DNA of 23,442 nucleotides from the IMG/VR virus record IMGVR_UViG_3300017727_000168, positions 1-23,442 of that record; one strand, 5' to 3'. The notes under the pieces were generated by a model. The model did not search any database. It had not been told where the DNA came from and saw only the letters and a list, made by a program, of their open reading frames with translations. This document shows, one piece after another, positions 1,270 through 23,442 of the stretch. This stretch comes from a virus. Both the position numbers and the translations under genes were made by a program. Each line of letters begins with the position of its first letter. The stretch's first letter is position 1.

Positions 1270-1277
1270 TATTTATT
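1270..1277 (-). promoter_or_regulatory. Variant late promoter AATAAATA before the tape-measure-like gene
   Basis: On the minus strand AATAAATA is followed by G and ATAC and then ATG at 1264. It differs from the T4 late consensus TATAAATA at the first base and shares the five-base spacing and following G seen at other starts here. It overlaps the stop codon (1275-1273) of the preceding -1-frame ORF. Assignment rests on motif and position only. Confidence 0.5.
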
Positions 1278-1458
1278 TGTTTTGCCGTTTAATTCGCTCA
1301 TTTTCTTCCTTTATATGCTCCTGAAGAAGAGATACGTATATCTGCCTTTCCCACGGGATCATATTGTCAAGTTCAGTTAAACTGTATTGATGATGTTGCA
1401 TCATCGCAAAGTTTGTCTGATAATGATTCGCTAAGGAATCATGAGAAAGGCTTATGAG
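1273..1458 (-). CDS. -1-frame extension of gp26-type gene (tail-assembly chaperone C-terminal part)
   Basis: Reading in the -1 frame from the slippery site, 61 codons stay open to TAA at 1275-1273. The segment contains the motif HHQYSLTELDNMIPWERQIY, followed by a charged helix. From memory, short ORFs of this type (HH-YS-E-MIPWER-Y) lie after gene 26 in marine T4-like phages; I cannot run the search. The only in-frame ATGs are a pair at 1404-1399, which would give a 43-residue protein; no Shine-Dalgarno or late promoter precedes them. The codons before these ATGs also look like protein and contain no stop. I therefore favour expression as a fusion: 232 residues of the upstream protein plus 61, total 293. 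Independent or coupled initiation at the internal ATG is the alternative. Confidence 0.65.
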   Translation of the reverse strand, partial: LISLSHDSLANHYQTNFAMMQHHQYSLTELDNMIPWERQIYVSLLQEHIKEENERIKRQNK

Positions 1459-2153
1459 AAAAAAGAATCAATTCCCTCTAATACAATCTCATTATCATGA
1501 CCACATTCTGCACATTTAAATTTAGCAGTATATTGTAGCTTTGGAATATTTTGGATATACTTTTGAATTTTTTCGAGATGTGAATGTGATAATGAATCAA
1601 CAAATTCAATTAATTCTTTTTCAGTTGATTCACTTGCAGGATATACACTATCTGCATCGTAGATAGATTCGATCGAATATATGATTGTTTGATTAAACGC
1701 CTTTTCAGGACTTTTATCATCGATCTTTTCTGCATCTCTTAATGATAAACTTTTTAATACGATTCCGATTGAATCAGTAATTTCAATTGTGTTACTAACA
1801 TCGTTAACCTCAGATATCTTAATATCTTCAAGGTTAATTTTAACATTTGCATATTCGTCGCACTTTTCACATTTAATGCGCACAGTTACGGTTTCTCCTA
1901 CGCTTTTTGCTCTCAGCTTAAGGAAAATAAATTCAAGGTCTGATGCAGTACAATCGTTTGGATCGAGCTTTTCAAAAGAACATGCTTTTACAATATCTTT
2001 AATAATTGGTAAGATCTTGCTGTCATCTTGTGTTTCTTGAGCGATCATAAGAACCTTTTCTTCCTTTACAAGGAACGGTCTAAAATCAACTGTTTTATTA
2101 AGAGAAGGTACCTCAATAGGGTACTTCGGTATATCTAGTTTTGGTAATGCCAT
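1273..2153 (-). CDS. Predicted gp26 frameshift fusion product (293 aa)
   Basis: Inferred product of -1 slippage at 1464-1458: residues 1-232 of the zero frame, then 61 residues of the -1 frame. The zero-frame and -1-frame parts correspond in layout to the G and GT products of lambda-type tail assembly chaperones, which act on the tape measure during tail assembly. The stop of the extension at 1273 is eight bases before the next start codon. No frameshift efficiency can be deduced from the sequence. Confidence 0.6.
1389..1405 (-). other. RNA hairpin in the -1-frame ORF
   Basis: Perfect inverted repeat GATGATG / CATCATC with a three-base loop, 53 bases after the slippery heptamer. It encloses the internal ATG pair of the -1 ORF, so if folded it would hinder initiation there. 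Whether it forms in vivo is unknown. Confidence 0.4.
1423..1442 (-). other. RNA hairpin 15 bases after the slippery heptamer
   Basis: Perfect seven-base inverted repeat ATGATTC / GAATCAT around a six-base loop, on the mRNA of the gp26-type gene. It could stimulate frameshifting, although the 15-base spacer is longer than the 5-9 bases usual for such elements. Confidence 0.4.
1452..2153 (-). CDS. 26: Baseplate hub protein gp26-type (zero-frame product, 233 aa)
   Basis: Resembles the T4 gp26 baseplate hub family (T4 protein about 208 residues). The N-terminus is Pro-rich, with a typical opening (LDIPKYPIEVPSLNKTVDFR). Two CxxC pairs at C95/C98 and C214/C217 suggest a zinc-ribbon-like clamp joining two distant parts of the chain. 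The start ATG at 2153 has no Shine-Dalgarno; a late promoter lies 42 bases upstream. The last codons are GAT TCT TTT TTC TCA TAA, which contain a slippery heptamer, so this is probably the short form of a pair of products. In T4, gp26 is needed for assembly of the baseplate hub; a chaperone role for the tape measure is my inference from the frameshift layout and the position just before the tape-measure-like gene. Confidence 0.75.
   Translation of the reverse strand: MALPKLDIPKYPIEVPSLNKTVDFRPFLVKEEKVLMIAQETQDDSKILPIIKDIVKACSFEKLDPNDCTASDLEFIFLKLRAKSVGETVTVRIKCEKCDEYANVKINLEDIKISEVNDVSNTIEITDSIGIVLKSLSLRDAEKIDDKSPEKAFNQTIIYSIESIYDADSVYPASESTEKELIEFVDSLSHSHLEKIQKYIQNIPKLQYTAKFKCAECGHDNEIVLEGIDSFFS
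1458..1464 (-). promoter_or_regulatory. Slippery heptamer T TTT TTC (programmed -1 frameshift site)
   Basis: On the minus strand the zero-frame codons read TCT TTT TTC TCA TAA. The heptamer T TTT TTC fits the X XXY YYZ rule exactly in the zero frame, with stop TAA one codon later. After -1 slippage both tRNAs re-pair on TTT TTT and translation continues CTC ATA AGC. Confidence 0.7.
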
Positions 2154-7446: not shown

Positions 7447-8496
7447 ATGGACCCAGAAAATTTTATTAATAATGGTGGTGGCTTTGCATGGTTCACAGGT
7501 GTGATCGAAGACATCGATGATCCAATGGAAATGGGTAGATATCGTGTACGGTGTTATGGATATCACAATGCAGATAAAGCCGAACAAAAAGGTATACCTA
7601 CTGAAGATTTACCATGGGCAATGACAATGTTGCCTGTTACATCAGCATCGATGTCAGGTGTGGGTCAATCTGCAACAGGTCTATTACGAGGAACATGGGT
7701 TATTGGCTTCTTTCGAGATGGCATTAATGCCCAAGATCCGGTTATTATGGGATCTATTCCATCTATAACCTCTCGGCCAGGAGATTACAGCAAAGGATTT
7801 ACTGATCCAACTGAGAGATATCCAAGTGAAGAAGCGTTACACCTTGATAAACCTGATACACCAGTCTCTGCACAGGTTATAGAAGAAAAATATAAACAAG
7901 GATTTAGTTATACAGAAAAGAAATCTTTAAGAGATATGTATGATCCAAAAATAACTATAGCTCAAAAAGTAAGAGCTCCTGAAAAAGCAGGAACTTTACC
8001 GGCAGCATGGATATTTCCAGCTATTGATGATGTAATGACTCCCACATATCCTCAAAATCATGTGACTGCTTATGAACGAGCAGACGATACAGTTGAAGCT
8101 GGGCACATTGTTGAGTATGATGTAACTCCAGGAAAAGAAAGAATATCTACTATCCACCGTACTGGAACATACACTGAAGTTACTCCAATCGGCGATAAAA
8201 CAGAAGTAATCGTTGGCAAAAACTATAGGGTTGTTGCGAAAGGAGAAAATGTTTATATCGAAGGTGGGTGTAATCTTACAATTGATGGAGGATGCAATAC
8301 TAAAATTATAGGTGACTGGAATGTTCAAGTCACTGGTAATAAGTTCGAGCATATTGGTGGTAAACATATCCATAGAGTGCAGTTAGATCAGACTGTTAAT
8401 ATTGGAACAACTATTACCGAGACAAGCGGTGGAACATGTACAGAAGCATACGGCGGAAATCAGGTAACTACTGCACCGAATATCTTCCTTAATTAG
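7447..8496 (+). CDS. 5: Baseplate hub spike gp5, lysozyme-free
   Basis: 349 residues against 575 in T4. Residues 11-105 form the OB-fold domain (FTGVIEDIDDPMEMGRYRVR, LPWAMTMLP, then GTWVIGFFRDG and QDPVIMGSI). A linker of about 120 residues follows. Residues 254-325 show nine octapeptide units of the T4 gp5C kind, for example VIVGKNYR, YIEGGCNL, TIDGGCNT and KIIGDWNV, which fold into the trimeric beta-helix needle that punctures the outer membrane. No catalytic lysozyme segment is seen between OB domain and needle. This matches my knowledge of marine T4-like phages, where peptidoglycan cutting must come from elsewhere. Its start lies four bases after a late promoter and has no Shine-Dalgarno. 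Confidence 0.85.
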   Translation: MDPENFINNGGGFAWFTGVIEDIDDPMEMGRYRVRCYGYHNADKAEQKGIPTEDLPWAMTMLPVTSASMSGVGQSATGLLRGTWVIGFFRDGINAQDPVIMGSIPSITSRPGDYSKGFTDPTERYPSEEALHLDKPDTPVSAQVIEEKYKQGFSYTEKKSLRDMYDPKITIAQKVRAPEKAGTLPAAWIFPAIDDVMTPTYPQNHVTAYERADDTVEAGHIVEYDVTPGKERISTIHRTGTYTEVTPIGDKTEVIVGKNYRVVAKGENVYIEGGCNLTIDGGCNTKIIGDWNVQVTGNKFEHIGGKHIHRVQLDQTVNIGTTITETSGGTCTEAYGGNQVTTAPNIFLN

Positions 8497-10884: not shown

Positions 10885-13800
10885 ATGTCATATCATTCTT
10901 CTTCAGGCAGTTATTCATCGGGTAGTACTAGTTCAACGACGTCAACATCGAGTAGTACTAGTTCAACGCCGACGACATCAGGTACTAGTAATTACGTGGC
11001 GAATGCGGGTAACACGATTACTACATCACCTGCATCTTCATCTACTGCCGCTGGTTCAGTCTACTTTTTAGAGGGACAAAGTAATAGCGGTAATACTGCC
11101 GGATTAGTTGGATATTTCTATCCACTTTACACTGACTTATCCTTAATTAATGGATTATGGCACGTGCATACGTTCGAAGGACTAGATGAAACATTTTACA
11201 TGCCTGAGGGCGAAACAAATCATGCTGTTCCTAGCCCTCCAAGAGCGAATAGTTATGGCGGTTTATCATACGAAAAATATGCAACATATAATGTTAATAA
11301 TACTGTAGTTTCATATACAAATTTCTCGACAGAGATATCTCAACCAGTTATTTCAGTTGCTGCAAGTAGGAGAGATTTTGATCCATTTGGCAATAATGCA
11401 TCAAATACAGAATCTCTTCGTGTTGAAGAACTTATTCCTGAACAGCTAAGAGCTAGCTCAGAAAGCTTTGTAGCATTAATTAAAGATTATTACGAGCATC
11501 TTAATACCGTAGGTCTTCCTACATATGAAACAAATCGTATTATTGATGAACACGATATTGATAAGGTATCAGAGAAATATTTAGATGGAATTCAAGGAGA
11601 AATTGCTAAAAATATTCCTGATTCTTCAGTGATGGATCGAGTGTCTTTGTATAAAAAAATTGTACAATACTATACACTTAAGGGTTCAGAAGAAAGTATT
11701 ACAACGTTTTTCCGTCTCTTCTTTGATGCAATTATAGAGGTATCCTATCCAAGAGAAAGATTGTTTGAAGCTTCTTCTGGAGAGTGGGTTAAAAAGAATG
11801 ACGATTTTACTCAAACTATTACAGCATCTACTACTCTTGAAACCTTAGGAATAGATTATAGTCGTCTATTATTTCGAATACAAGATGATAATAATGTAAC
11901 ACTAGGACAGGCAACGGTTCGTAGTATTGAAACAACAGTTCGTTATGCCGATGCCCCTAAGATTTCTGGATTATCTATTGATTTAGATACAAAGAAAAAT
12001 TTAAATGCTAGTAATGAAACGTGGGACTCTACTTTATTTAAAAAACCTGTTCGAGGTAGGTTTATGCAAGGTGCTCGCTTTAATGACCTTCAAAAATTAA
12101 TAAAGCTCGACGGCAAAAGATCCTACTTAGATTTTGGACTTATAGGTAATAATCCAAATATTCCTCTTGACACAGAAGAACACACATTTGTTATTCGTTC
12201 ATTCCCCAAATTCAGTAAAGAAAACACAAACCTTCAACCTCTATTTTCTTTATCAGAAAATTATTCAGATTTAAATTCGCACGAGCTATTTTTTAATAAT
12301 ACAACAAATAAAATTGGTAGATCATTTAGCGATATAAAAGAGCCTACTATTTCTATTGACCCGAGCGATAACGAGTCGCTTATATTTTCTAATTTTATTG
12401 ATTCAAGCACAGTTGCTTTAACTTCGATACGAGATCAAGACAAATACGATCATATGCTTGATTTCATATCACCCGTAGGTAGAACATATAACGGAAGGTG
12501 GAAAAAAAGTCTTATTCAGTTTAATGGAAAAGATGTTTACTTACATGAAATCGATCCAGTATTGAATCTTATTACTAATGATGATTTAAAATATTATCAA
12601 ACAGATGGAGATACATTTAACGGGCCAGATAATTTAAAAATTGGTCAAACAATTTACGGAGAATCTTTAAATGATTTTAGTGGAGTAAATGCCATAAGCG
12701 AAGATGGCTTTGTTGTTGCTATTGGTGCATCACTAAGCGATGATACTGGAATTAATTCAGGTAGCGTACGAGTATATGAATTAGCTAATGCCCAAGTTAA
12801 TGGTCTTGTAGATGACGACACTACATTAACTATTGATAATATATCCTCGGACTCCTTTCCAGCTGGCCTTGAGGTTAATATGGTTGTATCAGGAGGTGGA
12901 CTACCTGAGCTCGGTGCAGATAACGCAGTTAGAATTACTTCTATAGTTTCTGGAGGAACAACTGCAGATACAACTGCGATAGTACAAGTCAATCGCAATG
13001 TTACATTAAACGATAATGCAAATTTAAGAATCGGGACTAATGCAAATATATGGAGGCAACTTGGTCAAGATATTAATGGCGATAGTGCTGGAGATATTTT
13101 AGGAAGTGCGCTTAGTTTAAACGCTATTGGAAATACTATTGCAATCGGTGCCCCAAGAAACCGAGGTGCCGATTTAGTAGTTGATAATTTGTCGTATCAA
13201 AATTATCTTGGAGAAGTAAAAATATACGAGCTAAATTCAAGTCAACAATGGGTATTAAAAGGAAGTAATATTGTTGGCACTGATGAAAATACTAGAATAG
13301 GAGCAAGTGTTAGCTTAAGTGGTGATGGTAATCGAGTAGCATTTGGATCAGGAGCAAATCCAAATATAGACTATGATCTCGGAACTGAAGAGAGTATGGG
13401 TCTTCTTTTACAAGATGATGATATCGGTACTGTATACGATATCGAACTTGCTCCTGATGATATTACTAGTTTTACTCATCAAACTTATGTATATACAAGG
13501 GAATCTGCTTTAGAAAATGATAGACCTCGTTATAGTGGATCATCTGGAAGCACAACTTTTAGTATTAGGTGGAACGGTTCTAATTGGGTGAGAAAAATAC
13601 AAGGTTCAGGTGGAGGTGTACCAGAACACAATCTACACCCAAACGACACAACTCATCCATGGTTAAAACTTAATGGCGATATTATTCCTGCATTTACGGA
13701 ATTTCTTCCAACTTCTGTAGCACTTTCATTTGATTCAGATGGAACAACCGTTACTATTCAGGGCATCAACTTTAATACTGCATCCACTCGAATAAAAGTA

Positions 13801-16800
13801 CGTGGCATAAGTAATCAGTATAACGGAATATTTGATATTGATACTATTAGTTCGACGACTATTACCTATTTAAGAACTGGTCCTTTAATTTCAACTTCTA
13901 ATGATGTATCACCAGATTTTACAATTGAGATTGGTATACACAGAAATCCAATAAGCGAAATAGACGGAGGTAAACATATCGGTATTAGAGTTCCTGATAG
14001 AATTTCAAATGATACTGAGATTTATGAATGGAAAGAAGCTGATCCTGTTAATAACGCAGGTGTATTTAGTTGGATACAAATAGGAGATAACATTGTTTCA
14101 GAAAATAACGATCCATTAGCAGGTACGAATGTAGAATTAAGTGATGATGGAAGAACCGCTATGGTTGGAACACACATAATAAATGATGCAGGAATTGCTG
14201 AATTATGCATAAGAGTTTATTATAACGAAGAAGAAACTCTTACATGGAAACAAATTGGAGTCGACCACCTATTTGCTCCAGCTGCTGATAAGAGTGAGAT
14301 AGCAATGAGTTTAAGCAACGATGGATCAATATTTGCTGTTGGTATTGTTGGAGATGGAACTGATGAAGGCTTTAAAGGACAAGTTGAAACTTATCAACTA
14401 AGAACAACTGTAAATACTCAGGAATATATAAAGTTCGGACAAACAATTGAAGGTGACGAAGTAGGCGATGAATGTGGTAAAAGCGTTGACTTAAATACAA
14501 ATGGAAATATTATTGTAATCGGATCTCCTGGAAATGAAGATAACGGCAATGATGCAGGACAAGCCAGAGTGTTTTCATATAATAGAACAATATCAACATG
14601 GGAAAAAGTTGGTTCACCGATTGAAGGTTTCGGTGCTTTAGATAATGCTGGTGAAAGCGTAAGTATTAATGGTACAGGTACTCGTGTTACTATAGCATCT
14701 CCAGGAAATGATGGTGCTGGACAAAATAGAGGTAAAGTAGAAACATTTCAAATTCCTATTGATATCACTATAACTTCATTTGCGCTTTCTGAAAAAAATC
14801 TTGACGATGGTAGATTAAGGTGGACTATTAAATACGACGGAAATATAGTATACTATACCGACTGGTATACTACTGAACAATTCGCTAATTTAAATCCGTA
14901 CGGTATAAGAACAAAATGGAATATAGCAAATAAACAAGGAGATAAAAACTTCCCTGTTCTACCTCATTGTGAATACATTAAACGAAATAACGATCATCTT
15001 TTTAATTTACATAATAGAGGTTATCTTTCTATATTTTATAAACATAACGGCGAATTTCAACCGAGCCAAAATATTACAATAGGCGATACTGATGTTTATG
15101 ACGAAGAAAGACTGTGGGATATTTTGGATTATGCTGTTGACGGACCACATCTTATTTTATTAGATCGTCCTGTAAACGGCGCATCTCGCCTTGTTATATT
15201 TAAACTAGATCAATATAATCGTTATAATTTTTATCAAACAGTAGAGCTCAATCTTCCAGCTACACACTTAGGATCTGCAGATTTTGCACATGTTAAAATT
15301 AATGCATCGCAAATTATAGTTGGTACTCATACTTTTAATAACGTTGATATTGCACAAATCATTCAAGTGTACACTAAGGATGCGGATAACTTGTGGCCAA
15401 ATGATCGTTATACGACGTTGCCTTCTGCTGTTAGCACAGATGTTGAAGCAGATCTTCTTTTTAATATTGGAGAAAACGTAACTACTTCAAAATGGACATC
15501 TACGAACGGTCTAGTAGATTTAAAATCAGATTCTATAGTTGAAAACGCATCGAAAGATGACGGAATTTCCGTGTTTGTTCCTCGATCAACAATCGGTTCT
15601 GGACTTGGTTTTGATATTGAAGATAAGTTCTCTTTATCATTAAGATTTAAATCTGGTAGTTTATACGGAGATATTAATAATATACTAACTATAGGTAATG
15701 TTACCCTTCGAATAGCTACTGATCCTCTAACTAATAAGAGAACACTGCAGGTTGTTTCGCGAGAATATGGTAAAAGCGATGATCCCATATTTTTAAATAA
15801 GATAGACACTAATATTATTTTAGATGATAATAATATGTTAGAAATATTTAGTGATGAATATTTTGATAGCGAAATAAAAGAAAAAGAATGGAATAACTTA
15901 ATACTTGAATTTCATGTAAAAGACAACGTAATCGTTGGTTTACGTTATTCTATTAATGGATTTAAAAGATCAAAATCATTCAATACAGACCTATCTTGGA
16001 TACAAGCTTTTTTTGGTAATTTAATTCCAAGATTTAGGGTGCCTGTTCACGGAATTACAGCTGCGTCTCAGATTAAGCTTTACGATAATATCGCATTTTC
16101 GCATATCGCCTTTTATAATAAAAAACTTAGTTATCTTGAATTCGATTTATTACAAAGAAACTTATCGATCAACTATACTGATACTGTTACAACTGGAATC
16201 AATTCTTTACTTGACGGTGGACGATTTGAATTAAGCGAAACTGGAACAGTTATTGCAAAAGTATCTGCATATGGTATTCATATATGGGAAAGAAGGTCAA
16301 TAGATACTTGGAGAAGCTGGTACAATACAGTAGAATCTATAACAGGCGCAGAATCAAACTTCATTACACAAAATGGAGCAAGATCACACTCATTTAAATT
16401 CTTTGGTAATGATTTACTTTTAGTAAGTGGCGGATTAAATAATGCTAAACAGTTTGTAGATCAATTTAATTTATCTGATGTTTATAATAAGAAAGAACAC
16501 AATTCTCGCTCTGTATTATACTATCTTAGGAGTCAATATTCAACATCCGCAAGCGGATGGAGATCGATTAAAACTATACGTCCTACGATACCATTCATTC
16601 AATCTGATTCAACAGATTTTAAAGTTGGCTTAAACTATGGAGCAAATATTGCGGTAGATAATGATACAGATTCATTTGCGGTTTCTTTAGAACCAAATAG
16701 TATTAATGCAGTATTAAATGGACCAAATTCTACTTCAAATAGTTCTGCAAAATCTACAACGGTTAAGTATGATATTTGGAGAAAACTTGCGAATAATAGA

Positions 16801-19476
16801 ATACAATCTTTTCCACTTAATCAACCATCAGAAGGATTTCCTACTGTAGACTCCTACTTTAGGAGATTAAATAACAGCGCAGTTGTAAAACTTTTAGATA
16901 AGCCTCTATCCTATAATGCTATTCTTTCATTCCCGTATATTATACATTCTACATCTACAGGAAACCCGTTGATAGAATATGAGTATGATGCTGCCCGAAA
17001 TCCTATAGGATATCATAAAACAGCTAATAATTATAAGCCTGACTTTGTTATTTCTACTCCGCCTGGTCCTGAAATATATTTAGATACAGAGACGGTTAAT
17101 ATAAATGAATATAACGTAGTAGTTGTAAAAGGAAAGGCAGATAGATATAACGGCTATGTTAAAATTTCTCATAATGGTTCTGATTTTGATCAAGGCACAA
17201 TAATCGAGGGAAATACTCTTCAGCACTTAACTATATCTCCAAACTCTGAATTTATTATTGGTCGTAAAGACACTAGTTTCTTCCATGGAGATATTAGTCA
17301 TGCGCAGTATTACACGAAAGCAATTTCTTCTACGTCGCTTGCACAGATTATAACTTACCTAAATAACAATGTTAAAAAGTTCTATAAAATTATATTTGAT
17401 GATTTAGTTGGAACAACTGCAGGAGGTACTAAAATTGTTTCTTCGGCTGACTCAACAAAACCATTCGAGTTTGGTGATTTAGATGGTCATACTTTTAATT
17501 CATTCCTATACTACGATACTCCAGAATATAAAATAGATACTTACGATAAAGATGGTAATTTAGTTGAAAACCCAAATACAAAAATTCGTGTTACTGCTAA
17601 TTACGGCAATAATAAGGCTCCAGAAGAAATCATTTATTGGGGAGATGGAAGATTAGACAAAGTAAACAACAGAGCTACATTAGCTCATACATACACACTC
17701 AAATATCTCGGAGAATATAGTAATAAAAAGGGAAGAGTATCTTCGGTCAATCGATTACAAGACAGTGATTATTGGCAGAAATTTTCTTATGTTATTCGTA
17801 GCGGATTAAAGGTAACAGACTGGGAAAATTCTTTCTTAAGTCTAGTTCATCCAGCAGGATTAAAATTCTTTGCGAGTGTTATTCTATTGGTTATAAGAGA
17901 TAATCATTGGTTCGGTCCCAAATCTATAATATTCGACCCAGCCACTCGTCAAAATGTAAGTCTTCTTCGTGTAGAAGATGAATTCTTAGCACCATTCAGA
18001 ACTAAAACACCTCTGGAAGATATGCGGTGGCTCGAAGCTCTTACAGCACCGAGTGAAAGTGGTGGTTATCATATGCCAATGTTCCAGCCTGGTTGGTTAC
18101 AAGGAGATATACGTACACGAGAATTTATATTTGAAGCTGGTCTATGGACTAAATTAGCAAGGTCTGTTCCTGGAAACGAAGCTGCGGCCAAATATACCTT
18201 TGAATATTACGAACAAGATCAAGATGATGGAGATGCTGAATTCAGAATAACTGGTAATATTCTCGGCAGTTGGGAAACAGAAGAAGCGGTGAGTGCTGCT
18301 GCTGCAACCAATACTACAACTATTCAAATTAAAAATATCGCAAGTCTCTTTAATTTAGCAGTTGGAATGGTTTTAGAAGGATCAAGTATTCCTGCAGGAA
18401 CAACTATTGCTTCAATAACATCAGAAAGTACAAGTACAGCTACTATCGAAGCTTCACAAGCAGTATCACTTTCTGAAGATGATGTATTTACGATTTATTC
18501 AAACATAGTAGGAAGTATAGTTCAACAAAAAGATGAGAATGATGTTGTTATTCGAAGAGGTATTATAGCTTCGTTCGCTAAAGATGGAAATGATTATACC
18601 GGATTAATTAAAATAATTGGAGGATTTCCAGTATTCATAGATGGACAAATGTCTACTGAAGATCAAAATAGCGCAGACACCGCCCCTCTTAGATCAGCAA
18701 ATATAGTAACCTTTCCTAGGAAAAAGAAGGCGGAAATTGTCAATGTCTACGGAGACGAGGAACAAGATGCCGCATATCTATTGCAAGATAGATCAACTAC
18801 GAACTTCAATTCAGAAATGTTTTTGAGAGCGGTTCTTACCACGTTTAAATATGTTATACCTGCATTAGTACCACAAAAGGAATTTACTAAAAGAGATTAT
18901 GAACAGAATCTAAAGTTTAAAGACCGTGCAGACATTAGTTCGTATCTTCCAATAACTATTAAAGATGCACTTGCTCAGCGAGATGTCTTTATGAATATCG
19001 GTGCTACTATCACGAAGATAAATCAGCTTGATACTGAAGCTGGCGCCGGCTTCTATATTGAAAGTGACACATCAGATCCTCTCAATGATGAATTACTTAT
19101 CGATGATCATATAACTAATTGGTGGAATGATCCAGAAAATAGTCAAGATGTATCTGCACCAGTTGAATTTTCTATAGATAGTTATACACAAATTAATAGC
19201 TCAGTTGGTCAAATACAAAGTGCTGATACTGTTTATCAAAATAAAAATATTGATGGAGAATACATCAGAATTCAAGGAATAGTAATAAGTCATGTTGGAG
19301 ACTCCACTGATAGAAAGATAAAAATTGGTTGGAACGGAGCGTATAATTTTACTACCCAAACAGAACTATCATCAAATCCTGAAGCAACACAGTTATTTGA
19401 AACTGGAGTAATATTTACACTTAATGAAAGTAATAATAACCAAGAAGATATAGCTAACGTCACCCTTAATACATAA
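10885..19476 (+). CDS. 7: Giant baseplate wedge protein, gp7-like, with propeller and LamG-like modules
   Basis: 2863 residues; T4 gp7 has 1032. Residues 1-60 are Ser/Thr-rich. Residues 170-310 (SESFVALIKDYYEHL, YLDGIQGEIAKNIP, YYTLKGSEESITTFFRLFFD) and 2170-2340 (YWGDG, RVSSVNRLQDSDYWQKFSYV, DWENSFLSLVHPAGLKFFAS) are what I know from wedge proteins of marine T4-like phages, and the location after gp6 fits gp7. Between them lie: a LamG-like piece (about 408-560), seven FG-GAP-like blades (585-1292), further beta-rich sequence (1295-1520), a LamG-like domain (1520-1765) and another LamG-like piece (2050-2167). The start has no Shine-Dalgarno (ATTAAAAATT before ATG), 11 bases after gp6. A gp7/gp8 fusion cannot be excluded, since no separate gp8 is seen. 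Confidence 0.65.
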   Translation: MSYHSSSGSYSSGSTSSTTSTSSSTSSTPTTSGTSNYVANAGNTITTSPASSSTAAGSVYFLEGQSNSGNTAGLVGYFYPLYTDLSLINGLWHVHTFEGLDETFYMPEGETNHAVPSPPRANSYGGLSYEKYATYNVNNTVVSYTNFSTEISQPVISVAASRRDFDPFGNNASNTESLRVEELIPEQLRASSESFVALIKDYYEHLNTVGLPTYETNRIIDEHDIDKVSEKYLDGIQGEIAKNIPDSSVMDRVSLYKKIVQYYTLKGSEESITTFFRLFFDAIIEVSYPRERLFEASSGEWVKKNDDFTQTITASTTLETLGIDYSRLLFRIQDDNNVTLGQATVRSIETTVRYADAPKISGLSIDLDTKKNLNASNETWDSTLFKKPVRGRFMQGARFNDLQKLIKLDGKRSYLDFGLIGNNPNIPLDTEEHTFVIRSFPKFSKENTNLQPLFSLSENYSDLNSHELFFNNTTNKIGRSFSDIKEPTISIDPSDNESLIFSNFIDSSTVALTSIRDQDKYDHMLDFISPVGRTYNGRWKKSLIQFNGKDVYLHEIDPVLNLITNDDLKYYQTDGDTFNGPDNLKIGQTIYGESLNDFSGVNAISEDGFVVAIGASLSDDTGINSGSVRVYELANAQVNGLVDDDTTLTIDNISSDSFPAGLEVNMVVSGGGLPELGADNAVRITSIVSGGTTADTTAIVQVNRNVTLNDNANLRIGTNANIWRQLGQDINGDSAGDILGSALSLNAIGNTIAIGAPRNRGADLVVDNLSYQNYLGEVKIYELNSSQQWVLKGSNIVGTDENTRIGASVSLSGDGNRVAFGSGANPNIDYDLGTEESMGLLLQDDDIGTVYDIELAPDDITSFTHQTYVYTRESALENDRPRYSGSSGSTTFSIRWNGSNWVRKIQGSGGGVPEHNLHPNDTTHPWLKLNGDIIPAFTEFLPTSVALSFDSDGTTVTIQGINFNTASTRIKVRGISNQYNGIFDIDTISSTTITYLRTGPLISTSNDVSPDFTIEIGIHRNPISEIDGGKHIGIRVPDRISNDTEIYEWKEADPVNNAGVFSWIQIGDNIVSENNDPLAGTNVELSDDGRTAMVGTHIINDAGIAELCIRVYYNEEETLTWKQIGVDHLFAPAADKSEIAMSLSNDGSIFAVGIVGDGTDEGFKGQVETYQLRTTVNTQEYIKFGQTIEGDEVGDECGKSVDLNTNGNIIVIGSPGNEDNGNDAGQARVFSYNRTISTWEKVGSPIEGFGALDNAGESVSINGTGTRVTIASPGNDGAGQNRGKVETFQIPIDITITSFALSEKNLDDGRLRWTIKYDGNIVYYTDWYTTEQFANLNPYGIRTKWNIANKQGDKNFPVLPHCEYIKRNNDHLFNLHNRGYLSIFYKHNGEFQPSQNITIGDTDVYDEERLWDILDYAVDGPHLILLDRPVNGASRLVIFKLDQYNRYNFYQTVELNLPATHLGSADFAHVKINASQIIVGTHTFNNVDIAQIIQVYTKDADNLWPNDRYTTLPSAVSTDVEADLLFNIGENVTTSKWTSTNGLVDLKSDSIVENASKDDGISVFVPRSTIGSGLGFDIEDKFSLSLRFKSGSLYGDINNILTIGNVTLRIATDPLTNKRTLQVVSREYGKSDDPIFLNKIDTNIILDDNNMLEIFSDEYFDSEIKEKEWNNLILEFHVKDNVIVGLRYSINGFKRSKSFNTDLSWIQAFFGNLIPRFRVPVHGITAASQIKLYDNIAFSHIAFYNKKLSYLEFDLLQRNLSINYTDTVTTGINSLLDGGRFELSETGTVIAKVSAYGIHIWERRSIDTWRSWYNTVESITGAESNFITQNGARSHSFKFFGNDLLLVSGGLNNAKQFVDQFNLSDVYNKKEHNSRSVLYYLRSQYSTSASGWRSIKTIRPTIPFIQSDSTDFKVGLNYGANIAVDNDTDSFAVSLEPNSINAVLNGPNSTSNSSAKSTTVKYDIWRKLANNRIQSFPLNQPSEGFPTVDSYFRRLNNSAVVKLLDKPLSYNAILSFPYIIHSTSTGNPLIEYEYDAARNPIGYHKTANNYKPDFVISTPPGPEIYLDTETVNINEYNVVVVKGKADRYNGYVKISHNGSDFDQGTIIEGNTLQHLTISPNSEFIIGRKDTSFFHGDISHAQYYTKAISSTSLAQIITYLNNNVKKFYKIIFDDLVGTTAGGTKIVSSADSTKPFEFGDLDGHTFNSFLYYDTPEYKIDTYDKDGNLVENPNTKIRVTANYGNNKAPEEIIYWGDGRLDKVNNRATLAHTYTLKYLGEYSNKKGRVSSVNRLQDSDYWQKFSYVIRSGLKVTDWENSFLSLVHPAGLKFFASVILLVIRDNHWFGPKSIIFDPATRQNVSLLRVEDEFLAPFRTKTPLEDMRWLEALTAPSESGGYHMPMFQPGWLQGDIRTREFIFEAGLWTKLARSVPGNEAAAKYTFEYYEQDQDDGDAEFRITGNILGSWETEEAVSAAAATNTTTIQIKNIASLFNLAVGMVLEGSSIPAGTTIASITSESTSTATIEASQAVSLSEDDVFTIYSNIVGSIVQQKDENDVVIRRGIIASFAKDGNDYTGLIKIIGGFPVFIDGQMSTEDQNSADTAPLRSANIVTFPRKKKAEIVNVYGDEEQDAAYLLQDRSTTNFNSEMFLRAVLTTFKYVIPALVPQKEFTKRDYEQNLKFKDRADISSYLPITIKDALAQRDVFMNIGATITKINQLDTEAGAGFYIESDTSDPLNDELLIDDHITNWWNDPENSQDVSAPVEFSIDSYTQINSSVGQIQSADTVYQNKNIDGEYIRIQGIVISHVGDSTDRKIKIGWNGAYNFTTQTELSSNPEATQLFETGVIFTLNESNNNQEDIANVTLNT
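10922..10968 (+). repeat. 17-base direct repeat in the Ser/Thr-rich start of the gp7-like gene
   Basis: GTAGTACTAGTTCAACG occurs at 10922-10938 and 10952-10968, exactly 30 bases apart and therefore in frame. The region encodes only Ser, Thr and Pro. Copy-number changes would keep the frame. Confidence 0.85.
12640..14760 (+). repeat. Seven FG-GAP-like blade repeats in the gp7-like protein
   Basis: Protein-level repeat, about 50 residues per unit, with the pattern (I/F/L)G--I-G-----(F/G)-SV-L---G--(V/I)AIG(A/S)P-----G-V-(V/I)Y-L. Units begin near residues 586, 722, 789, 1061, 1111, 1181 and 1232. Examples of core motifs are GNTIAIGAP, GNIIVIGSPGN and TRVTIASPGND. Seven units would close one beta-propeller. 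Two insertions interrupt it: residues 643-716 and about 829-1061. Confidence 0.6.
15448..16180 (+). other. LamG/concanavalin-like domain in the gp7-like protein
   Basis: Residues about 1520-1765 show the usual LamG layout: DIEDKFSLSLRFKSG, then ILTIGNVTLRI, then EWNNLILEFHVKDN, SINGFKRSKSF and finally YDNIAFSHIAFYNKKLSYLE. Such domains are beta sandwiches that often bind carbohydrate; the ligand here is unknown. Confidence 0.55.
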
Positions 19477-19495: not shown

Positions 19496-22400
19496 ATGAG
19501 TACAAAAATTTCAAATTTACCAGAGTTAGGTGTTAATGCAAGCGGTGGGATCGATAGAAGTATTATCGACGGAAATGAATTTTTTCCGATAATCGACTTT
19601 GATGCAAATAACAATTTACAGACGTTTAAAATTAAATTAGATACACTGTTTTTAAGTGGTCAAGGATTTGAGAAAGTAACAGACATTGCTATAGCTGAAG
19701 ATAGTAATAATCAGTTTAAATTAATATATACAAAGGAAGATAACAGCACAGATGAGATAACAATTGACAAGTATGTAATTCAAAACGGTGATGTAAAATT
19801 CGAGCACATTGATACTACTGATTATTTTACTTCTGATGTAGGAAATCTGATACAAAGTGATAGTAGTAGTAATGTTAAATTAGCTACTGCTGGTGCAATT
19901 GATACACACATTACTCACAGATTATATGGTACGAATGAGTATGATGATGCAATTAAAGAATATTTTGGTGATAGCACGACTTCACGCACTGTTGGTACAC
20001 ACATATTAAAAGATTTTAGACTAAATTCAGAGGTTGCACAAGATTTTCTAGATCTGTTAGATGATGTTAGACCTTCGCTAGATACATTTAAGAAGATCGA
20101 AGAACAGTTTGATACGATTGATTATAGTGATAAAATTGGAACAAGTCAAGTAAACACTGATCAGTTTGTAATTCTTGAACCAGGTGGTAATTTAAGTAGT
20201 CGTTTAAATATTAAACCACTTGCAATTGGTACTGGTCTTCTTAACAGCAATGCGGTTATCACTAATAAGATTAAAGATGGAGCAATCACTACTGCTAAGA
20301 TTGATACTGGTGCAATTACTGCAACTAAACTAAATGTTGATTCGGTTATAACAGTTAAGATTAAAGATGAAGCTGTAACTCCTGCTAAACTTTCTGCTGG
20401 TGCACCTCAATGGGATACTGATAATGTAAATATTCTTAATGACTTAGTTGTTACTCACGATGTTAATGTTAATAATAATATTAAATCTTTTGGTACTGAT
20501 ATTAGTTTATTCAATTCTAATGTCACAAATAGATCGACTGGTAATGGTAGAGCGATCTCTCACGATCTCGGAGATACACTAGTTATTAATAAATTTAACG
20601 ATTACATTGGAGGTGTACATATTAAGGGATTAATAATGGCGCCTGATCAGCATGTAGGTAGAATAATTACAAGTACTGATAACACATTAGTAACAAAGGC
20701 ATATGTAGATCGCGCTGACGTTCTTCTTAATCCTATTGCAGAAGATAAAATTCAAGATGATGCGATTATACATCGTCATATGACTCCTGATTCGGTTGAC
20801 ACTGAGGAATTATTTGATTTCTGTGTAACAAGTCCTAAAGTTGAAGTTATTGGCCCACATTGGGATGATACCGGTACAGTTAAAATACTTAATAAGCTAG
20901 ATATTAATGGCCACGAGCTAACTGTTGGTGACATCGGTGGTACATCAACAACTAACGAAACTCGATTAATACTTCGTGGTCCAGAAACTACAGATAATGA
21001 TATTCGACTACGTAGAGGAATTGCCACTGTTGCCCGAGGAAAGGGTGTTAACGGCAATTTCATTCTTAACAATTCAGGTACTGGAGATCTTATATTTAGT
21101 AGAAGTGGTCAAGAAAGTTTTAGATTAACTCCTACTGCAGCAAGGTTACCTAAGACTCTTCAAATTGCAGGAGGTTCTTCAGCAACTATTAATGGAACAA
21201 ACTTTTCTAATATACCATTACTTATTGGAAATATTAATGCTGGAATTGGAATTGATAACAATGAAATAGTACAAAAGGGAGGAAATCTTAATATCGGTGT
21301 TGCTGATTCAAATCGAAATATCTTTTTCAGGTCCGGCAGTCTTTTAAGAGCAACTATTCATGGTGATAGCGGAGATATTCAAGCTACTGGAGATCTTATC
21401 ACAAATACAGGTATAGTAAGACCAGTAAGAGATGATTCAAGACTCAATCTTCGTGGTGGTACAACAAATGCAAATGGAGCGAATATCGATTTGTATGGAG
21501 CTAGTAATGGAGCTAACTCAAATCAGGCAATTTATGATGCAGATATACACCGCTTTAGGGTATCAAATGGTAGTGTAACTGCTCTTGAAATTGATGCTAA
21601 AACTAGGAGAATTAAACTATTTGCTGAAGGTACACAACCAAACCATTTGGTTACGAAGAAGTATGTTGATGATGAAGTATTTAAACCTATTCAAAGTTTA
21701 GATATCATTACTTCGAGAATGGAAAGCGGATTTTACCAAACATCGAATGCAATATTTGGTAATGGATGGCCAGAAACAACTAACGGATATTATCATCTAC
21801 TCACAAATACTCATAGTAACACAACAAATTATAATGCTTTACAGTTTGCTGCTTCATATACTAATCAAGAAGTTTACTTTAGATCAACAAATAATAATGG
21901 TAATCAAGCATGGAGCAAATTGTGGCATACAAACAATCAAGGAGCTGGTTCTGGATTAGATGCTGATTTACTTGATGGAAAAGAAGCAGCTGCCTTTTCT
22001 TTAATTAGTCATCTACACGATGATAGATATAGAAAACTTACTACTTTAATTGGATATAACGATCTTACGGTTGGAGCACCTTCTTGGGACACAACTAATG
22101 TTAATATTCATAATAATTTAGATGTTAGTTTGAGCGCAACTATAGATGGAAGTCTAAGAGTTGGTGGTCAAATAACCCAAACCGGACCTGACTTTAAGAT
22201 ATTCAATCAAACTCGTGCCGGAAGCGGTAACACACATGCAGGTAGAGCACTTGTACATGGAGTAAACGATGCATTAAATATTAATTATGCTAAAGATTAT
22301 ACTGGTGGTGTACTAATTCACGGAAATATAATTGCCCGTGATCAATCAATGGCGTTCATTAAGGATAATTCTAGAGCGTTAGCCACACAAGAATACGTTT

Positions 22401-23442
22401 TATCTAAACAGGCAGAAACATTTCCAGATATCAATTACATACGTAAAATAGGTGATAATGTTTTCGGAACTTTATCATGGACAAATGTAAGTGGAGAAGG
22501 TCTAGAATGGTCTAAGAATACCGATAAAGCTTCGATTAAATTTTACAATGAGGGTGACACTGATCCTGATTGTCGATTACAGTTTGAGATTGGTGATAAT
22601 AACACCGAGTATTTTACATTTGTTCTTAATCCAAGTGGAGCACGGCCAAATATAACACTTCTAAAAATAGGTCATAGCGAGCTTTCTTATAAAGGCTATG
22701 ATGTTTGGCATGACGGTAATACTACTGCTAAAGTTGATCAAGTTCATCTCGCTAAAAATGCTGTAACTAATATTAAGATTTCTGATAATGCAGTTAACGA
22801 AAGAAAAATTGCTTCGAACTCAGTTACTGGAAGTAAGATACCTGATGGCACAATTGTTTCTTCTCATATACAGGATTTATCTATTGGGACTGCCAAGATA
22901 GTTGATAATTCAGTTACTTCTGATAAGATAGTTGATAATTCAATTATTGCATCGAAGATACCAAATAGTTCAATTGTTACTTCTAAAATATTAGATAAAG
23001 CAATTACTACAATTAAGATTGATAATAATGCAGTTAATAATAGTAAGATAATTGATAACGCAATTACTTCTGATAAGATTGCTAATTTCAATGTAACTAC
23101 TAATAAAATTGCTAATTTCAATGTAACTTCAGAAAAGATAGCTGATAATGCAATTATTTCAAGTAAGTTACCAAATGCAATAATTACTTCTGATAAGATT
23201 GCTAATCAAAATGTTACAAGCGCGAAGATATTAGATCTCTCAATTACTGCTGCTAAGATTGCTAATAACAATGTTACTGCTGAAAAAATTCTAAATGGTG
23301 TTATATCTCCTACTAAACTTTCTCCTGGTGGACCTAGTTGGAATGCTAATAGTAATTTGTATGTTAAAGGTACACTAGTATTAGGACAACCTGTGGGAGG
23401 AGCAGGACCTTACACCGGAATTACAGCTACTCGAGTAGATAC
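19496..23442 (+). CDS. Long tail fibre / receptor-binding protein (3' end missing)
   Basis: Partial: 1315 codons from ATG 19496, open to the window edge. The N-terminus (MSTKISNLPELG, later FFPIIDFD) is the usual attachment start of phage fibres. Then come two blocks of decapeptide repeats (20255-20404 with 5 units, 22763-23332 with 19), four W-D cassettes ((G/A)P-W(D/N), followed by N-LDV), three TK-YVD-like motifs (near 20690, 21650, 22380) and DADLLDG at residues 822-828 with HLHDDRY at 839-845. DADLLDG and HxH motifs are known from trimeric long tail fibres, where HxH can bind metal. It may be the counterpart of T4 gp10, gp12 or gp34; I cannot choose. The receptor-binding tip is probably outside the window. 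Confidence 0.8.
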   Translation, partial: MSTKISNLPELGVNASGGIDRSIIDGNEFFPIIDFDANNNLQTFKIKLDTLFLSGQGFEKVTDIAIAEDSNNQFKLIYTKEDNSTDEITIDKYVIQNGDVKFEHIDTTDYFTSDVGNLIQSDSSSNVKLATAGAIDTHITHRLYGTNEYDDAIKEYFGDSTTSRTVGTHILKDFRLNSEVAQDFLDLLDDVRPSLDTFKKIEEQFDTIDYSDKIGTSQVNTDQFVILEPGGNLSSRLNIKPLAIGTGLLNSNAVITNKIKDGAITTAKIDTGAITATKLNVDSVITVKIKDEAVTPAKLSAGAPQWDTDNVNILNDLVVTHDVNVNNNIKSFGTDISLFNSNVTNRSTGNGRAISHDLGDTLVINKFNDYIGGVHIKGLIMAPDQHVGRIITSTDNTLVTKAYVDRADVLLNPIAEDKIQDDAIIHRHMTPDSVDTEELFDFCVTSPKVEVIGPHWDDTGTVKILNKLDINGHELTVGDIGGTSTTNETRLILRGPETTDNDIRLRRGIATVARGKGVNGNFILNNSGTGDLIFSRSGQESFRLTPTAARLPKTLQIAGGSSATINGTNFSNIPLLIGNINAGIGIDNNEIVQKGGNLNIGVADSNRNIFFRSGSLLRATIHGDSGDIQATGDLITNTGIVRPVRDDSRLNLRGGTTNANGANIDLYGASNGANSNQAIYDADIHRFRVSNGSVTALEIDAKTRRIKLFAEGTQPNHLVTKKYVDDEVFKPIQSLDIITSRMESGFYQTSNAIFGNGWPETTNGYYHLLTNTHSNTTNYNALQFAASYTNQEVYFRSTNNNGNQAWSKLWHTNNQGAGSGLDADLLDGKEAAAFSLISHLHDDRYRKLTTLIGYNDLTVGAPSWDTTNVNIHNNLDVSLSATIDGSLRVGGQITQTGPDFKIFNQTRAGSGNTHAGRALVHGVNDALNINYAKDYTGGVLIHGNIIARDQSMAFIKDNSRALATQEYVLSKQAETFPDINYIRKIGDNVFGTLSWTNVSGEGLEWSKNTDKASIKFYNEGDTDPDCRLQFEIGDNNTEYFTFVLNPSGARPNITLLKIGHSELSYKGYDVWHDGNTTAKVDQVHLAKNAVTNIKISDNAVNERKIASNSVTGSKIPDGTIVSSHIQDLSIGTAKIVDNSVTSDKIVDNSIIASKIPNSSIVTSKILDKAITTIKIDNNAVNNSKIIDNAITSDKIANFNVTTNKIANFNVTSEKIADNAIISSKLPNAIITSDKIANQNVTSAKILDLSITAAKIANNNVTAEKILNGVISPTKLSPGGPSWNANSNLYVKGTLVLGQPVGGAGPYTGITATRVD
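20255..20404 (+). repeat. Decapeptide repeat block A of the fibre (5 units)
   Basis: Five 30-base units encoding (I/V)(T/I)--K(I/L)-(D/V/A)-(A/S), for example ITTAKIDTGA and VTPAKLSAGA. The block leads directly into a W-D cassette (PQWDTDNVNI). Confidence 0.85.
22763..23332 (+). repeat. Decapeptide repeat block B of the fibre (19 units)
   Basis: Nineteen unbroken 30-base units, consensus (I/V)T(S/T)-KI-(D/N)N(A/S/N), for example VTSDKIVDNS, ITSDKIANFN and VTSEKIADNA. The block ends in ISPTKLSPGG followed by PSW. Neighbouring units are close at DNA level: ATTGCTAATTTCAATGTAACT is identical at 23078-23098 and 23108-23128. Confidence 0.9.

Follow-up and report, generated by a model that had tools for sequence, protein, structure and literature searches.

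The stretch of DNA analysed here, referred to as the window, comprises 23,442 nt (positions 1 to 23,442 of IMG/VR record IMGVR_UViG_3300017727_000168) and comes from a marine T4-like phage. Its minus strand carries gp26 and, overlapping the gp26 3′ end, an open reading frame in the −1 phase. The features at and around this junction are the following.

2212-2877 (−): tail tube protein gene, directly upstream of gp26, in the place of lambda V (phrog_45, E 1.5e-33)
2196-2203 (−): TATAAATA, T4-type late promoter motif upstream of gp26 (by position)
1452-2153 (−): gp26, 233 aa, probable short tail assembly chaperone (TAC-N, lambda G-like; PF12322, phrog_150, tblastn)
1475-1478 (−): GAGG, Shine-Dalgarno-like, lying 10 nt before the heptamer, a possible stimulator of frameshifting (sequence, codon bias)
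1458-1464 (−): slippery heptamer T_TTT_TTC in the gp26 frame (sequence; cluster conservation and synonymous-site test)
1273-1458 (−): −1 extension of 61 codons and a stop, gp51-type C-terminal domain (TAC-NC tail, lambda T-like; phrog_634, C-terminal part of phrog_150, pN/pS)
1423-1442 (−): hairpin 1, a perfect 7-bp stem (1442-1436/1429-1423) starting 15 nt past the heptamer (fold)
1389-1405 (−): hairpin 2, a perfect 7-bp stem (1405-1399/1395-1389) over the internal ATG (fold)
2-1264 (−): probable tape measure gene, in the place of lambda H, cut by the window end (matches in relatives)

The gp26 product belongs to the Pfam family PF12322 T4_baseplate (E 1e-55; 189 bits, cut-off 24.5) and to phrog_150, baseplate hub (E 9e-63), and tblastn found matches in 1033 phage records. 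A sequence search of the PDB returned no match and an NCBIfam search no credible family. The predicted structure (pLDDT 88) starts with a beta hairpin followed by three helices. Its top PDB hits include the HK97 tail chaperone 2OB9, a resemblance that is no more than suggestive given the non-significant scores (E 0.68 and 1.7), and its matches in a viral model library are chiefly other gp26-type proteins. The protein also contains two CxxC pairs (KCEKC and KCAEC) suggestive of a zinc ribbon, in agreement with weak, below-cut-off matches to zinc-ribbon Pfam families.

The order tail tube, gp26, extension and probable tape measure gene is the lambda V-G-T-H order. Profile searches with the window's copy of the downstream gene gave neither a confident family nor a confident tape measure match; its positional counterparts in L019, L047, L077 and RHph_I1_18 (L091) match tape measure PHROGs with E values of 2e-8, 3e-6, 9e-7 and 6e-13, respectively. 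The motif TATAAATA occurs in the window as often as expected by chance, hence it is the position of the copy ahead of gp26 that points to a promoter. Elsewhere, the plus strand encodes a gp5-like hub protein of 349 aa (7447-8496), which matches the 868-position phrog_430 in two stretches and seems to lack the lysozyme domain. It also carries a 2863-aa open frame (10885-19476) followed by a frame of more than 1315 aa (19496-23440) with short NAVTNIKISDNAV-like repeats; both frames probably encode tail fibre or adhesin proteins.

The 3′ end of gp26 reads GAT TCT TTT TTC TCA TAA, with a single sense codon (TCA) between the zero-frame heptamer and the gp26 stop at 1454-1452 (−). A −1 slip on the heptamer opens 61 codons (1458-1276, −) ending at a TAA at 1275-1273, and the predicted fusion is 293 aa long with its junction at F232-L233. 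Within the extension, the internal ATG at 1404-1402 (−) is preceded by no Shine-Dalgarno-like sequence (CAGACAAACTTTGCG), and the nearest minus-strand copy of TATAAATA upstream of it is the one before gp26 (2203-2196), with none directly before the ATG. A preliminary description of this DNA had reported the in-frame T TTT TTC one codon ahead of the gp26 stop, the 61-codon open −1 frame, the position of the junction and the small ORF's internal ATG without ribosome binding site or late box, and the sequence bears out all of these. The window contains 12 copies of TTTTTTC where 12.4 are expected, so the heptamer by itself is no evidence of frameshifting; what goes beyond chance is its in-frame position and its conservation.

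Conservation of the heptamer and of the −1 frame

The same description had proposed to look among relatives for the heptamer and for protein-coding constraint between it and the internal ATG, and both are present. A scan of viral contigs recovered 80 relatives, the junction being readable in 79, and all 79 have a zero-frame T_TTT_TT(C/T/A) together with an open −1 frame. When these relatives were combined with cyanophage, Aeromonas, Vibrio and annotated phage loci and clustered at 80% identity, 95 gp26 clusters were obtained. In 91 of them T_TTT_TTN is in frame, with identical spacing to the stop in 87. The four exceptions are T2, which encodes gp51 separately, Vibrio phage K452 and two Ackermannviridae.

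Codon usage at the site is strongly biased. In 91/91 heptamer clusters the preceding codon ends in T and the first Phe is encoded by TTT; at other places in these genes, Phe-Phe pairs frequently have TTC first. Given the amino acids and the codon usage of the family, a synonymous-site test assigns this pattern a log10 P of −38.8, under a simple model that treats clusters as independent; because the clusters are related, such P values overstate independence.

The heptamer is not universal among phages that keep the extension. Ackermannviridae loci (L096, L098, L197 and L198) and Vibrio phage K452 (L095) have retained the −1 extension and lost the T_TTT_TT heptamer, gp26 ending in ATT TTC ATT TAA or CTT TTT GCG TAA. 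Just a T_TTY tetramer is left at these sites, on which re-pairing is possible for one Phe tRNA, so another site or route is needed in some relatives.

The extension is under protein-level selection. Read in the −1 frame, the stretch between the gp26 stop and the internal ATG has a pN/pS of 0.20 and the part past the ATG one of 0.14, whereas the same bases give 1.18 and 1.40 in the other two frames. The extension is the short gp51 known from marine T4-like phages: it matches phrog_634 (E 3e-28), annotated as baseplate hub assembly catalyst, as well as the C-terminal part of phrog_150 (E 2.5e-8). Helices are predicted at residues 2-24 and 36-61 (pLDDT 76); a fold search of the PDB with this model returned nothing useful.

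These data bear on whether gp26 and a small gp51 could instead be two proteins, the second having its own start at the internal ATG (1404) or arising when ribosomes re-initiate past the gp26 stop. Cyanophage annotations do imply a separate gp51, several records start a short gp51 inside the extension, and in PG216, K452 and BUCT608 an ATG overlaps the gp26 stop, making termination-reinitiation possible. However, the residues ahead of the internal ATG are conserved as protein, and the start itself shows no such conservation: within the first 26 columns of the extension, 15 of 88 clusters lack an ATG and nine lack any ATG, GTG or TTG. Coding constraint and an unconserved start argue against an independently started small protein, judging from sequence, and such a protein would leave the synonymous conservation of the heptamer unexplained. 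In addition, T4-type gp51 is a fusion, and Aeh1 (L090), LPCS28 (L093) and S-CAM1 (L086) keep the heptamer and a gp51-type −1 frame in which a second gene is unannotated. Hence the reported 'absence' of gp51 in Aeh1 is an annotation gap. Among 21 annotated records, none joins the two frames as one coding sequence. Separate translation of a small gp51 is thus considered very unlikely.

Candidate stimulators and the proposed mechanism

The case for a single gene read in two frames is extended by the surroundings of the heptamer. Glu codons at the Shine-Dalgarno-like spot are GAG in 41 of 62 instances, against 588 of 1938 (30%) elsewhere in the genes (p 7e-9), and a Shine-Dalgarno-like motif lies at a spacing of about 7-10 nt in most clusters. 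This arrangement resembles the Shine-Dalgarno-stimulated frameshifting of E. coli dnaX.

Downstream of the heptamer, the stretch in the window has a predicted folding energy of −18.8 kcal/mol and is more stable than its dinucleotide shuffles (z −3.25). Across the family, the stability of the downstream RNA exceeds that of synonymous-codon controls (mean z −1.62). The preliminary description had relied on two perfect hairpins, and both stems exist in the window, but their positions are not conserved, which makes them weaker evidence than was assumed: at least 6 of the 7 pairs form at the fixed positions in just 11 and 13 of 88 clusters, and sliding the positions by 3 bases scores almost equally well. 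Downstream structures vary by lineage and are weak or nearly absent in L018, L022 and L036; because of these relatives, downstream structure is not a required element. A search of Rfam found no element at the junction.

A run of T residues could also act during transcription, the fusion then being translated from mRNA with a changed number of U residues rather than by ribosome slippage. RNA polymerase is known to slip on long runs, and a run of at least six T is conserved at this site. However, the run stays in register with the codons and in most clusters does not exceed six T, since a C follows it in 76/91 clusters. Both the Shine-Dalgarno-like motif and the bias towards RNA structure implicate the ribosome. 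Transcriptional slippage is regarded as slightly less probable still than a separately translated gp51.

Frameshifting by the ribosome is therefore the preferred reading: gp26 and the −1 extension would form one tail assembly chaperone gene read two ways by −1 programmed frameshifting, to which we assign a probability of roughly 0.9 on sequence grounds. Most ribosomes would end at the gp26 stop and yield the 233-aa short form (TAC-N), while a minority would slip by −1 with two Phe tRNAs on T_TTT_TTC, probably helped by the upstream GAGG and the downstream RNA structure, and yield the 293-aa long form (TAC-NC) with the gp51-type end domain. By analogy with lambda G, the short form may coat the tape measure protein and, by analogy with lambda GT, the long form may bring tail tube subunits to it. 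The occurrence of slippage, its efficiency and the chaperone function are what we infer here. We regard the frameshift as very probably genuine and conserved, and the assignment of gp26 as a chaperone as probably right. The frameshift and the lambda G/GT-like role had both been put forward in the preliminary description and are well supported by sequence.

Relation to T4-type gp26 and gp51

In T2, gp26 and gp51 are related proteins. Residues 1-201 of T2 gp51 fall in PF12322 (E 4e-55), the family that also includes T2 gp26, and residues 3-248 in phrog_150 (E 7e-88), while T2 gp26 and gp51 match each other directly (BLASTP E 1e-5). Residues 200-246 of T4-type gp51, within its last 50, match the extension (profile match, E 2e-7), and a further profile match supports the division of gp51 into gp26-type and extension parts (E 8.5e-14). 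As judged from these matches, T4-type gp51 consists of a gp26-family domain and the same extension, joined in frame. Because of the shared PF12322, phrog_150 and extension matches, T4-type gp26 seems to correspond to the short form, and gp51 to a fused long form, of what is a single gene here.

In a gp26/gp51 tree, T4-type gp26 and gp51 each form a single clade on very long branches. This topology is compatible with one duplication; because of the long branches, it does not settle the order of duplication and loss of frameshifting. A broader scenario, held tentatively and at a little under even odds, is that the long chaperone was ancestrally made by frameshifting throughout the T4-like superfamily, a mode replaced once, in the T4-type lineage, by gene duplication and in-frame fusion. 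Ackermannviridae and K452-type phages would keep a degenerate site at which re-pairing is limited to one Phe tRNA, or follow another route, and the signal would have three parts, i.e., GAGG, T_TTT_TTY and a lineage-specific hairpin.

Comparison with known systems

The preliminary description had considered frameshifting undescribed for gp26 of T4-like phages. This is not supported. Vladimirov, Gautam and Davidson (2022, Virology 566:9-15) are reported to have identified the chaperone genes of T4-like phages. PMC10885494 refers to this work for phages that carry a short gene plus a fused one, and PMC12846349 does so for poly-T −1 signals within the TAC-N genes of T4-like phages. The duplicated-gene route and poly-T frameshift signals are thus both mentioned in papers citing that study, and a frameshifted T4-like chaperone is not a new phenomenon. 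Because the idea is in print in outline, the present contribution lies chiefly in improved annotation and in a broader, quantitative test.

A review of T4 (PMC3004832) describes gp26 and gp51 as hub assembly chaperones, gp51 being essential and of unknown function, and a 2016 review (PMC5009743) describes G-T frameshifting as widespread, with T4 excepted. A comparison from 2010 (PMC3037559) found cyanophage gp51 to be about 20% of the normal length and Aeh1 alone to be missing it. On the present reading, the protein widely annotated as 'baseplate hub subunit' and the short 'gp51 hub assembly catalyst' would be reassigned together to a single tail chaperone made with a frameshift, in a group of viruses abundant in the ocean. 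This would explain both the short cyanophage gp51 and the 'missing' gp51 of Aeh1.

The closest known system is the T4-like chaperone pair gp26/gp51 itself (Vladimirov et al. 2022), which is the same family as here: PF12322 covers T2 gp26 and the N-terminal 201 residues of T2 gp51, and the gp51 end matches the extension. The difference is that in T2/T4-type phages the short and long forms come from two genes on opposite strands, whereas in the window a single gene would supply both by way of its slippery site. The tail-gene frameshift of lambda G/GT and other long-tailed phages, as outlined in PMC5009743 and in PMC9024508, which cites Xu, Hendrix and Duda (2004), likewise uses an overlapping −1 frame and a slippery heptamer close to where the first frame ends, between the tail tube and tape measure genes. 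A difference is that the heptamer here is T_TTT_TTC, and no sequence similarity to lambda G or T is claimed. Another myovirus chaperone locus with a conserved poly-T −1 signal is that of Vandenendeviridae and Andersonviridae (PMC12846349). Its −1 frame is likewise open and usually appears in annotations as a small gene of its own, but these are other phage families and their motif is GTTTTT.
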